Of a stretch of DNA of 64,000 nt, positions 198 to 61,000 are shown piece by piece. The notes below the pieces were generated by a model. That model was not told the DNA's origin. It ran no database searches and saw only the letters and a list, made by a program, of their open reading frames with translations. The DNA is from Macrocystis pyrifera (lineage: Eukaryota > Sar > Phaeophyceae > Laminariales > Laminariaceae), in NCBI GenBank assembly GCA_031763025.1, contig JASSKH010000012.1, positions 4,497,397-4,561,396 on the forward strand. The letters are read 5' to 3'. Position 1 is the stretch's first letter. Every line of letters starts with the position of its first letter. The position numbers and the translations under genes were made by a program.

Positions 198-3100
198 CTG
201 CAAAAAAAAAAAACAACAAAAAAACAATATACAAAATGCGAAATGAAAAACAAAAAACGCGAAAGCGCAACGTTGCAAAACGCAACATGTACAAGGTTTA
301 AAATGCGTCATACGAAACGCAAAAACGTGAAACGAAAGACAAAAACCGCAAAATGAAGACCGCGAAATGGAAAATGCAAAACGCCAAACAGCAAATTGCA
401 AAATGAAAGAAAAACATAAATGCAACATGCAAAATGCTCCGGCCATACGACTACGGCCATGCAGGGCATGAGTACACTACCCCCGCCGGCTCGGTCTCGA
501 AAGGGATGCGTGGTCAAATGGTAAAATGTTTAATGCACAAGTAACAATTGAGCCCCCCCCCCCCCCCCCCCCCGCCGCCTCCACGCACCTGACTAGTCTC
601 TACGTCGTACAGGCGAACCGTTCGGTCGTGCCCCGCCGTCACGACATGCGCCTCTGCCGAGTGGAACTCCACGCTGTACACGTCAGGGGCCGGGGACCCG
701 AGGCCATCACCGTGGCCGCTAATAATTGAACGCGGTTCTATAGGGGCCTCTGCCGGCGGTGAGGGGTTGGGTCCTGGGGAGATACGAGTTGATGCGGTGG
801 AAAGAGGTGGTGGGTTGCGGATTGTTATCGTCGGGGGCGTGTGGGTGTAGTGGATGTGGTTACAGTACGCGATAGCAGTTGATACTGTCATGTTTAGGCT
901 AAGGAGGCTCGCGGCTTACCGTCACGTCAACGTTGAGCACAGGCTTTCGAAATACATCATACAGGATTCAGAGTGGCGTCCTTGCTGAGCACAAGTTCTT
1001 GCCGGGTACGTAGCTATTAATTCTTGAAATGCAAAGATAACTCAGGCTTCATTTTTTCATCAACCACATTCTCAACAGATGTCGTTTACTGTATGGTGGT
1101 AGTGGCGATGGCAGTGGTGGTGGTGGTGGTGGTGTGTGGTGGTGGTTTTGATAGTGGTGGTTGTGTTCGTTGGTAGTGGTGGTTGCGGTGTTCATGGTTT
1201 CGTGCTTTGTCTTTGCGTTACTTTGTGTACTTGGTTGTTTGTGTACCAGCTATGTGTTTGTGTTGTACTGTGTTGTAATGACCCGTGTAGTTTCATGTCG
1301 TGTGTGGCACGGAGTCCTCAAGACACCAGACGCCCCCCCTCCCTCCCCCCCCCCCCCCCCCCCCCCCACGCCTCCTGCTATGAACCGCCGACCGAAGCCC
1401 CTGTTGGAGATGTCTCTACAGGAACGGTGCTCCGTCTCGAAAGAGATGCGGGGTCAACGGTCAAACGACTGAGGCAAGCAACAAATGGGAACCCCCCCCC
1501 CCCCTCCCCCTTAACGCCTTTTTTGCTGCACTCTACAGAAACAAAAATATGATTCTGATCCCAAGTGTGGGACTGCAGTTCTAAAGACTCCGGACATCTC
1601 CGCTGCCGCCCACCGTCGCCTGCCCGCCGTAGCGCACCTCTGGACAGCAGCTGGTCTCCCGGAGGCAGAGACCACAGCCGAACAGCGCCGTCTCCCCAAG
1701 CGCTCGCCAGCAAATCCCCTCGCCTGTTAGAGGTCACGTCCCACACGCGCACCTTTTCCTCTCCGGTGGCACCCGCCTTCAGTCTCAAAACCGGGGCAAC
1801 CGTCCCACGAGCCCCTCCCCCCCCCCCCCCCCCTCCCTCCCCCTCTCCTCCTTCCCGCCCCCCCCCCCGCCCGCCCCCACCCCCACCGCCACCGCTGCTC
1901 CTAGCGCTATCACCACCACCGAGACCAAACATTGACCCGTTTTCTGCCTCCACTCCTTCGCCGAAGCCACCCTGGCTCCGTCGACCGTCTTCGGCGCTTC
2001 CCGAGAAGCGCCTCTGGTTTTCCACTTCTTCACAGGAATAACCATCACCACCACCACCACCACCACCACCGTCGCCACCCCCCCCCCCTGCCCGCCCCTC
2101 AAAACCGCCTCCATCTTCATCTTCATAGCCATCGTAGTCATCGTCCTCGTCGCCTTCGCCTTCCCCGCCGGGGTTGGTAGGCCACAGGCAGATGTCCCCA
2201 TCCCCGCCCCCCGACGCCATCAGTGACGCCTCTTCTCCCACAAACGTCACGCACTTCACGCCGGAAGAGTGGCCGACGTAGACGTCCTAGCAGAGTCCGG
2301 GACGGCAGGGCAGCGGTAGTCGCGTGCCAAAGTGGAAGCGCGCGGCGTCACCTGAAACAGGTTTGTATAGCAAAGTGACGGGGGGGAAGGGGGGGGGGGG
2401 GGGGGGGGGGGGGGGGGGGGGGGGGGGGGGGGGGGGGGGGGGGGGGGGGGGCGGCACTCGATAGGAGAGATGTACTCGATCTCATGCATGGCCGTAGTCT
2501 GCATGCTCATTTGTTGCTTGTCTTAGTCATTTGACCATTGACCACGCATCCCTTTCGAGACGTAGCACCGTTCCTACTCCTAATAGAGACACCTCCAACA
2601 ATCGCTCGCTCATTACGTTGTTTCCATATATTACGTAGAAACCGTTTGCTAATCTTGGGGGGGTACTCATGTTCATGCATGGCCGTAGTCGTACGAGCAT
2701 AGACCCTCGCATCCCTACAATGCTGGGAAGGAGCACGTTGGGTTTTCGCCGATCAGGCAGCAGACATCGCTTGCACCAAGCGCGAAGCGTAACGTGAGGT
2801 GCTAGGCTAGTCGCATGAAGTGGTGAGCTTGCACCTGCATCCTGCTAAGAACCGCTTGTGAGGCGGACTTTCTTGCGTCCGGATGGCAGCGCCCATTACT
2901 TGATTATGTTTTCTGGTGTATCAACTTCCAGTGACAGCAATGGGCATACCAGGTACTATGTATCTGGCCTCGTGGGTGCCTTACCATGTACACACTACGT
3001 GATACAATATTTCCCCTTGTGCGGAGTAGAGGTTATCCACCCCGCACGAATGATCGAGTGGTCTACAACTCGACAGGCACGGCAATCCCCACAAAAAACA

Positions 3101-58000: not shown

Positions 58001-61000
58001 ACAGCTAACTCACGCTCTCGCGCTATCCGCTAATCAATTTTATGCAAGAAAAAGTCCCTACGAGCATGCACTCGGTGAGACTCGAACTCAGGAAATTGAT
58101 CTTGATAGGCTCGCGGACCACCTACCAAGCCACGGGGGACGCCGTTATGGTCCCCCGTAAATAGTGAAACAGACTCCAGTGGTTGTCTGTCGCCTGTGGC
58201 GGCTGTGGAGTTGACGGCAGTGTATTCTGGTGTAGAAAAATTGCCGACGGGATGAATATTTCGGTCATGTGAGGTCCGCGCGGGAGAGATTGGTGTTTAC
58301 GGTAGATAAAACTGGGGTACCAGGTACATGTTTTGTGTTGCGGGCGATCTCGGCTGAAAAGCCTTGAGCTCCTAATGTTTTGTTGGACACTGTGTTCGGT
58401 GAAACACGTCGGCGGCTGTCGTCGTGCTTCTTTCAAACTGGAAGTTGATGATGAGCCCATACGACGTGGGTCGACGAGGGAAGAAGGGGCTGAGTTATTC
58501 TGGCGATATTTCATGCGCAAGACACACCGTTGGCAGTACGGTAGTGGGGAGGGGGGGGGGGGGGGGGGGGGGGGTACTCGATAGGAGAGAGATGTACTCG
58601 ATCTCATGCATGGCCGTAGTCGTATGACCATAGACGTGGGGATGGGGGGGGGGGGGCGTACTCATTTGTTGCTTGCCTTAGTCGTTTGACCAGGGGAGGG
58701 GGGGGGGGGGGGGGGGGGGGGGGAGAGCCTGCTACATACGTACGTGACCTCGGATAATGACTTCCGACTGTTGCTGGTTAGTGTTACAGGTGGGTGTCCA
58801 TAGTTAGTGGGACCAGATTTTGTTGGTAAAAATAGGTAAATATATACCAGGTAGGTTTTAGTGTGTACCATAGGCCCTATTAACTGTGGACCCCCGTAAT
58901 AGGAAGAATCGTAGATGGGATGGAAGCATATACTGCTGTACCATGGTATAAGATATTAACACTGCTCTATCTGATGGTTTCATCGCTCTGTTATTAACAA
59001 TAAACAAAAGTTTTCGTTTGTCAACAAAACGATTTTGTTCTGCCTTTTAATTATCTAAGGTTTTTTGTTCTTTGTTTGTTTGTTTTGTTTTGTTTTTTTG
59101 GTTGTAAACTGGGGGTGTGATGCGCGGTGCTTGTGCGGTGGGGGCGTTCGGCGACGCGCAGGCGAAGAAGAGACCGTCGGGGAGCAACATCGCGGACTTT
59201 TACGGGCGTGGCGATTCGGACTCGGACGAGGAGGAGACGGCGTTCAACATGGATTCCTACAGCAAGGGGGTCTTGCTCTCCCAAGCGGCGGAGGTTGGCA
59301 CGCACACGGAGGATGGCCAGCTGCGACCCCAGGTGCGTTTTACCTGGCACCTGGTATATTATATAAGCGTGTCCCGCGTGTATATATATATATATTCCGT
59401 GGTAGCCTTTTCGAGACTATTGGTTTTCTTCGGATCTTGATCTATCTACAGATAGATCATCTGTATGTCCTAACCTGCTGTTCCGAGATGCCGTGCAGGG
59501 TCTGTACATGTACAGTACAGATCAAACCCAGGAAGTATGCCCTATGTAGATAATGCAGATCGTAAAGCTCACACCCTGCAACGTTTGAGCTAGATCCCAC
59601 AGACGAGCGATCTGCTGTCTTATCTATGTACCCTGAAATATTTGGGCCAGGTGGAAGTGGAAATCGAAAAATATGTTGGATGTGTGCATATGTTTTGGTG
59701 ACTAGTCCAAGGCGTCCAGAGTTTTTGTTTTTGAAGTTTCAACCCCAGTATATTAAGGCACAACCCCCGAAAGGTTTCAGACTTCCGACGGGTCATGAAT
59801 TGTCACTTGATGATCTAGATCTTTCAAGGCAGATAGATGTGTTCCCTGTCTCGTCTGTATGATCTATCCCTGATCTGTATGATCTTGTATGATCTGTATG
59901 ATCTGTGTGATTTGTATGATGTAGCTCATGTTGCCGGGTGGGAGCCGTGTATAGTAGTCTGCATGATCTAGCGTTTGTTTCCTAGTTTGGGTCTGTACGA
60001 TACAGATCCTGCACAACCTTTCGCAACTTCATCTGAGGAACTATCTGAAGATCTATCTGTACAGAGATCAGATAGGTGGGTATATAGATTTATCTTGATC
60101 TGTCTGTCCAAGCTGTGGAAAGTTTCAACCCCTAAATATCTCAAGGCTCTTCCATAGGTCACATGACCGACCCGTGCGGGTCGGGTCAGGAAGGTTTTGG
60201 AATTTCACGGGTCGGGTCGGGTCGAATCGGGTCGGGTCAGGAGGTTTTCATCCTCTAACGCGACCCGACCCGACCCGACCCGACCCGACCCGGCCCGCGA
60301 GGTTTGACCCGACCCGTAAACGGCCGCGGCTATAACCATATTTACCAACCCCGAAAAGGTCGAAACGGACCTTTGTTGGTGACCAGCGGCAACTGCTACC
60401 AAAACGTATGCAATGTACAGCAGTGTTGAATCAGTTTTTTTTTCTGGTGGCAAGTAATATCAGTCCTCGAGTCCAAATTACAAAGGTCGTTTGGGTGGCC
60501 ACACCATCTCCGAGTGTGCGTTATATTTACCATCACAAAAAATCGGGTACCTCCCTCCCCCCCCCCCCCGAGCTACCTCAACAACTGTAGCTACTGCGGT
60601 ACAGTAGTATAGAGTGGTGTGCGGATGTCTCGTTTTTTTAGCTTTTGGGAGCACGCTCATCAGCTACACCACGACCTCAGCAGACCGCCGCGTGACCGAC
60701 GCCGCTGTGATGGTACATTTTTACTTCAATGTTTTTTATAATTCTCTTGACACCCGAACGGGGCTGCTTACGAGTCGGGATATCCGACCCCGACCCGACG
60801 CTTGAGATTTTGAAGACCTCCTGACCCGACCCGATCCGACCCGACCCGGCCTGACCTGACCCGGCCCGGCCCGGCCCGGCCGGCCCGACCCGACCCGACC
60901 CAACCCGTGAGATGTTGAAGATCTCCTGACCCGTGAACACGCTCTATATATAGCGGTGGCGAGGTGCTCGTTTTCATCCGTAGTCTCGTTCGTGGGTGGA

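Follow-up and report, generated by a model that had tools for sequence, protein, structure and literature searches.

The genome of the kelp Macrocystis pyrifera carries, far in excess of chance, the 9-mer TACCWGGTA (W, A or T), which occurs in the forms TACCAGGTA and TACCTGGTA and is hereinafter called the scar word. We analyze it here in a window of 64,000 nucleotides, i.e., the whole stretch under study (contig JASSKH010000012.1, positions 4,497,397–4,561,396, forward strand), in additional loci and across the assembly. Comparison with related copies firmly establishes that, wherever a test was possible, the word arose by the gain of 7 bp (CCWGGTA) at a TA dinucleotide; we have very little doubt that this reading holds at those sites and, given the uniformity of the word, likely at most other sites too. 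Its best explanation, and in our judgment a probable one, is that it represents the excision scar of a cut-and-paste element that targets TA.

The window contains 25 exact copies of the scar word (16 of TACCAGGTA and nine of TACCTGGTA), as compared to 0.47 expected from base composition and 0.54 from dinucleotides, i.e., a 47-fold excess; the expectation is 0.62 under an order-3 Markov model and 1.2 at order 4. The preliminary description of this DNA had given about 25 copies against about 0.5 expected, and we find the word at every place it listed, with the sole correction of 58317 to 58318. Each one-base neighbor of the word, its A/T partner aside, occurs only 0–4 times in the window and, hence, the excess is specific to TACCWGGTA. 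Across the whole assembly (537,376,219 bases in 223 contigs) there are 121,279 exact copies (60,665 + 60,614) as compared to 2,421 (1,239 + 1,182) of the control, the word reversed. This approximately 50-fold difference amounts to 118,858 (~119,000) copies beyond the control, and the genome-wide count that had been suggested as a check thus lies far above random. The genome mean is 14.4 copies per 64 kb, making the window about 1.7 times denser.

A pool of 265 kb, comprising the window, a stretch of contig C4 (A), part of a stretch of contig C5 (B) and smaller loci, holds 65 copies of the scar word in 56 clearly different contexts, against 2.5 expected, and TACCWGGTA shows by far the top enrichment among words of the form TA-N5-TA. 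The word is therefore not part of one longer repeat with homologous flanks, a possibility that the preliminary description had raised. We also considered TAGGACCTA (TA-GG(A/T)CC-TA, 11 window copies) as a second scar and rejected it: it lies within the terminal repeats of a palindromic family of miniature inverted-repeat transposable elements (MITEs) of ~107 bp, which has ends of the form TTACGGGGG(A/T)CC... and many copies in the window, and this family accounts for its excess, which in the pool vanishes when contexts are made distinct. Among other words, TACAGCAGTA stands far above expectation in diverse contexts of the pool (34 vs. 0.8) and is possibly related to microsatellites; TACGAGTACGAGTA (894 vs. 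59), a possible tandem repeat, was excluded from use.

The evidence for a 7-bp gain comes from pairs of filled and empty sites. The assembly was made from a haploid female gametophyte culture and has a size of 537 Mb, with 35 scaffolds and 188 contigs (PMC10498591). Stretches A and B share long alignments, mostly at 92–99% identity, and, because the assembly is from a haploid, we read them as duplicated regions or a duplicate assembly and not as alleles. Alignments of at least 800 bp between them, taken in both directions, furnish 38 site-by-alignment comparisons, in which 32 are identical, three show a base difference inside the word and three lack the insert. Clean empty/filled pairs are seen at A15269 (ATATATA-TTG vs. 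ATATATA-CCTGGTA-TTG) and B25438 (GTATGTA-TGGG vs. GTATGTA-CCAGGTA-TGGG), the latter being empty also in two older paralogs; the third site without the insert, A34206, aligns less tidily. At A15269 and at window position 58845 the overlap between filled and empty states is the TA only. Scars of piggyBac, PIF-Harbinger or hAT elements, whose target duplications are TTAA, 3 bp or 8 bp, were rejected on this ground.

Older repeats tell of the same gain. One family of ~560 bp, represented at window 2657–3220 and near 43325, 54579, 55114 and 55804, gave 7,933 first-look candidates genome-wide, 40 of which were scored and resulted in 48 listed matches; among these, the long ones are 75–78% identical to the window copy and one shorter match 81%. 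The insert at 2947 is absent from all ten copies examined over 141 bases each (ten of the 11 best-matching others among the matches listed). Likewise, two paralogs with 76% identity, around A10687 and A11682, each have a scar that the other lacks, at different TAs. Counting all 61 scar-site entries, which are non-independent in that duplicates in C4/C5 and C1 are counted repeatedly, eight have at least one paralog alignment favoring the empty state. For 781 entries of other TA-N5-TA words, 24 have an empty-favoring paralog, 604 have shared states only and 153 have neither (8/61 vs. 24/781, Fisher p 0.0013), and the noise of the test is therefore about 3%. With entries that are merely shared set aside, the contrast is eight of 12 vs. 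24 of 177 (p 9e-5). Finally, in an indel catalogue open to any word, 17 distinct gains measure 7 bp; in three of them a TA is duplicated, each time as TACCNGGTA, with an A/T center in two and C/G in one.

The same catalogue contains companion gains that duplicate TA. These include TATTAATA (three rows, two loci), TACAGTA (four rows, three loci) and TACGAGTA (two rows, one of them in a tandem repeat, leaving one clean locus with a 6-bp gain), the remainder being short forms rich in A+T and isolated longer gains. Counts in diverse contexts of the pool stand at 76 vs. 43 expected for TACAGTA, 29 vs. 9.5 for TACGAGTA and 26 vs. 1.9 for TATTAATA. The last has a flank preference of its own, TAC ahead of TA, and may therefore be a different thing. 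The Minos transposon leaves the footprint TACGAGTA/TACTCGTA, and the TACGAGTA gain is of this form. TACAGTA, in turn, corresponds in form to the footprint of Sleeping Beauty (PMC3878927).

The gains are not placed at random among TA dinucleotides. At 62 distinct sites (124 flanks), compared to background TA sites of the same DNA at positions chosen after a first look at the flanks, a purine (R) is found at −1 in 102 flanks (p 7e-7), a pyrimidine (Y) at −2 in 83 (p 6e-5), A at −6 in 63 (p 6e-9) and W at −7 in 97 (p 3e-9). A at −3 (51) and W at −8 (84) are also significantly above the TA background, with p over all these positions ranging from 1e-3 to 3e-9; A at −5 (43/124, p 0.07) and W at −4 (71/124, p 0.14) show no significant preference. 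Thus, with the insert removed, the site is a near-palindromic YR-TA-YR in an A+T-rich setting (−6 to −8). The target of Sleeping Beauty is palindromic, and YR-TA-YR resembles it. Tc1/mariner elements are reported to prefer bendable TA sites (PMC3878927).

The center of the word is almost purely A/T (65 A/T vs. 4 C/G, with 2.8 C/G expected by chance), which is compatible with the earlier suggestion that a mismatch at the center was resolved as either A or T. Less in keeping with that suggestion, the center is weakly correlated with the flanks: over the 121,279 genome sites, the A-centered form has A at −3 on the left in 52,985 and on the right in 47,082, both counts including contributions from doubles (see below), and, on 58 sites, a test of flank orientation returned p 0.063. 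A weak link between center base and flank is hence likely; it would follow if the element ends differed at base 3, with the center recording the orientation of the element.

The scars decay as neutral sequence does. In the pool, one-step neighbors number 95 as compared to 51.5 expected, with transitions at 47 vs. 17 and transversions at 48 vs. 34, i.e., the decayed forms are transition-biased. Genome-wide, matches with at most one mismatch number 451,680 vs. 83,910 for the control. Subtracting the exact copies twice, as a single mismatch separates the A form from the T form, gives a one-mismatch excess of ~130,000, a ratio of 1.09 to the exact excess (0.70 in the pool). Under a model of steady activity, the ratio lies between 0.6 and 1.05 when the age is at least 0.2 substitutions per site, so that the genome ratio, measured against a crude control, lies slightly above its ceiling; a single burst would require an age of ~0.09–0.13. 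The scars have built up over a long time. From a steady-state integral of 0.115 and a density of 2.2e-4 per bp, the model puts the rate at ~1.9e-3 scars per bp per unit divergence, or about one scar per 520 point substitutions. Per haploid genome, this would be ~1e6 times the per-base mutation rate, or 0.001–0.01 scars per generation if that rate is assumed to be 1e-9 to 1e-8, which could be within reach of a low-copy, persistent element.

Scars may also adjoin. Doubles, in which two scars share one TA, occur 5,620 times genome-wide and never in the control. Among them, 609 (10.8%) have the order T-then-A where 25% is expected; a near-absence of this order (one of the first 50 doubles listed) was dropped in view of the full count. 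Besides doubles, short-range clustering at gaps of 8–100 bp is not significant (5 vs. 2.1, p 0.06).

What we observe is the abundance, recurrence, target preference and decay of the word and, at testable sites, a net gain of 7 bp at TA; we propose the following candidate mechanism for these. An element would insert at the TA of a YR-TA-YR, A+T-rich context and duplicate it. On excision by the transposase with a 5-nt stagger, the terminal CCWGG of each end would stay on the flanks as a 3′ overhang. The overhangs might then anneal over CC/GG. Their central bases would form an A-A or T-T mismatch, unless the two ends differ at base 3 and pair perfectly; end joining would close the site as TA-CCWGG-TA. 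The element, the stagger and the annealing of ends are all candidate parts, and to our knowledge a 5-nt stagger would be new for TA-targeting transposases.

Several results weigh against excision of such an element. The parent was not found: its absence from the window had already been noted, and a scan of ~280 kb turned up no element whose ends read CCAGG/CCTGG. The nearest TA-anchored inverted repeats begin with CCAGT (C4 stretch, A 17570–19517) and CCAGA (locus L035, 3467–9491), and further inverted matches around them mark both as parts of longer inverted repeats. Over the whole genome, the Pfam domains DDE_3 (PF13358; three candidates scored, control matched in three of 14 genomes) and Transposase_1 (PF01359; 20 candidates scored, control silent everywhere) gave no matches, and no CCAGG terminal repeat flanks the DDE_1 domain (PF03184) at the five of 39 loci examined (1.5 kb per side at three of them, ~4 kb per side at the other two). 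In 49 of the 61 site entries, the paralogs all share the scar, and four of 61 have neither state, and the alignments of A34206, and of B25438 against C4, are untidy. The number of doubles is ~12 times that expected from independent insertion (5,620 vs. ~470), for which the simple model lacks an account; insertion may favor scar TAs, or doubles may arise in some other way. The kelp scar has five inner bases as compared to the 2–4 bp of Tc1/mariner footprints (PMC7913693), and one form dominates, unlike the footprints reported for Osmar5 and Stowaway, which vary and contain 1–4 bp fragments (PMC1925063). The preliminary description had specified a Tc1/mariner-type scar. The TA form, the recurrent 7-bp gains, the target preference and the companion footprint types agree with this, the length does not; because of this length and since the transposase is unseen, we do not claim membership in Tc1/mariner. 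The parent element would accordingly be rare, extinct, divergent, or might never have existed in full.

Two candidate parent ends suggested by broken alignments were not accepted: at L033 7065 the second end is absent, and for window 7374 a possible partner at 6837 agrees in only the first six terminal bases. The stretch between these last two (window 6837–7375, TACCTGGC...GCCAGGTA, 539 bp) is the sole one noticed that has scar bases at both ends at a plausible MITE length; as its ends agree in only six terminal bases, it may be due to chance. The DDE_1 search itself returned 39 pogo-like transposase matches genome-wide, with no link to scars. They are located on C162, on C32, on C194 near its end and on other contigs (loci L029–L032); many have similar scores, and several are on contigs of small size or close to the end of a scaffold. 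Of the four loci extracted, three share ~98% identity across 2.7–3.5 kb. A repeat near these copies, TACCTGGG...GGATATGCC, is separate and not an element end.

The alternative that survives best, though we consider it rather improbable, is direct micro-insertion, wherein an enzyme (e.g., a transposase that uses fragments of its own ends, or an abortive strand transfer) writes CCWGGTA at TA without a full element ever being present. The uniform product, the failure to find a parent in ~280 kb and the excess of doubles over independence would all suit it, but the A/T center, the TA duplication and the companion words TACAGTA and TACGAGTA fit excision better, and we know of no enzyme that writes such insertions. 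In its most explicit form, to which we give marginally less credence still, it would be a new kelp mutational process, in which a transposase-like enzyme writes the fixed CCWGGTA at YR-TA-YR directly, about once per 500 substitutions, with a preference for TAs that belong to its previous insertions, as the 5,620 doubles would attest.

A functional protein-binding or chromatin motif under selection would agree with the high copy number and near-palindromic form. However, it is already disfavored, and we regard it as very unlikely: 7-bp TA gains are private in otherwise alignable repeats, scars sit inside MITE and repeat copies, and the neighbors decay with a transition bias. Rather than being kept at orthologous or paralogous positions, the word is gained privately and decays in a seemingly neutral way; duplicates that are nearly identical do have scars in common. 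Equally slim are the prospects of programmed somatic excision in the sequenced gametophyte tissue, comparable to the elimination of TA-bounded DNA in ciliates. The TA boundaries and the origin of the assembly from a haploid gametophyte culture (PMC10498591) speak for it, but decayed scars, and scars common to duplicates a few percent apart, show that the scars are inherited and of many ages. Moreover, the 7-bp insert stays at the kelp sites. In ciliates, TA-bounded programmed excision restores a single TA. The least probable origin, in one dispersed repeat or as a by-product of base composition or microsatellites, draws on the richness of the window in TAC/GTA repeats and on the three of 25 copies (4240, 4399 and 4480) in a local repeat, but is countered by the 56 contexts among 65 copies, the 50-fold rarer reversed control and the order-4 Markov expectation of 1.2. 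We thus retain excision of a TA-targeting element as the preferred reading of the sites collected in Table 1.

Table 1. Scar sites and associated features, in window coordinates unless a stretch is named
Feature	Position	Strand	Evidence
TACCAGGTA scar in old ~560-bp repeat copy (~2657–3220)	2947..2955	+	6/7 paralog alignments favor empty; 10/10 family copies examined empty
TACCTGGTA scar	3376..3384	-	1/1 paralog alignment favors empty (72% identity, weak)
Scar word in locally repeated stretch	4240..4248	+	word match
Scar word in locally repeated stretch	4399..4407	+	word match
Scar word in locally repeated stretch	4480..4488	+	word match
Scar word	8737..8745	+	word match
Scar word	19253..19261	+	word match
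Scar word	24599..24607	+	word match
Double scar, 24885 and 24892 with common TA	24885..24900	-	word match
Scar word	26740..26748	+	word match
Scar word	27589..27597	+	word match
Scar word	32260..32268	-	word match
Pair of scar words 12 bp apart (32895, 32907)	32895..32915	+	word match
Scar word	35082..35090	-	word match
Scar word	36417..36425	-	word match
Scar word	36960..36968	+	word match
Scar word	50212..50220	+	word match
Scar word	53112..53120	-	word match
Scar word	53158..53166	-	word match
Scar word	54360..54368	-	word match
Scar in further copy of ~560-bp repeat	55500..55508	+	5/6 paralog alignments favor empty
Scar word	58318..58326	+	word match
Scar in ~107-bp MITE copy (~58792–58901)	58845..58853	+	14/15 paralog alignments favor empty; recovered in strict indel catalogue
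TACCTGGCACCTGGTA, putative decayed double scar (shared TA probably changed to CA)	59341..59356	+	sequence reading
~107-bp MITE copies, approximate	8208-8316, 11198-11306, 14103-14211, 36717-36825, 48120-48228, 53918-54032, 58792-58901		
Companion gains (TACAGTA, TACGAGTA, TATTAATA), examples	window 3128, 26883, 53989; B 18686, 62926; A 56839		

If excision is indeed the origin, the kelp genome holds an unusually dense fossil record of cut-and-paste activity. From the ~119,000 excess exact scars and the decayed ones, the history of excision, target choice, end processing and repair would be readable statistically, and the scars could be dated by their decay and used in kelps as presence/absence markers. 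If the steady-state model holds too, frame-breaking 7-bp insertions would be a sizeable natural mutation class in Macrocystis pyrifera. In the literature searched, with most subscription papers outside it, we found no report of such a scar. Judging by titles and the beginnings of abstracts, results for the exact word were unrelated to a genomic motif, nothing related by title emerged on a 5-bp footprint, and brown algae together with footprint and transposon excision gave nothing; the word "footprint" is absent from the available part of an Ectocarpus transposon paper (PMC12477816).

We compared the kelp scar with the excision footprints of Tc1/mariner transposons, among them Sleeping Beauty, ZB, Osmar5/Stowaway and Passer. 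It shares with Tc1/mariner footprints the TA target, the duplicated TA on both sides and the terminal bases kept between the TAs, and with the C(A/T)GTA footprint of Sleeping Beauty the A/T center (PMC3878927). In contrast, its five inner bases exceed the 0–4 of the pogo-type Passer (PMC9976928), and it is set apart from known footprints by its nearly uniform product, the ~119,000 excess copies in one genome and a parent that was not found. The TA duplication and inverted symmetry are as in MITEs, including Stowaway, yet the kelp scar has no element body and amounts to only 7 bp net. Minos offers the same logic, and its footprint word is enriched in the kelp pool; however, the Minos overhang is of 4 nt with two central mismatches, and the Minos-like word is far less enriched in kelp than the scar word, a part of it possibly being tandem repeat.

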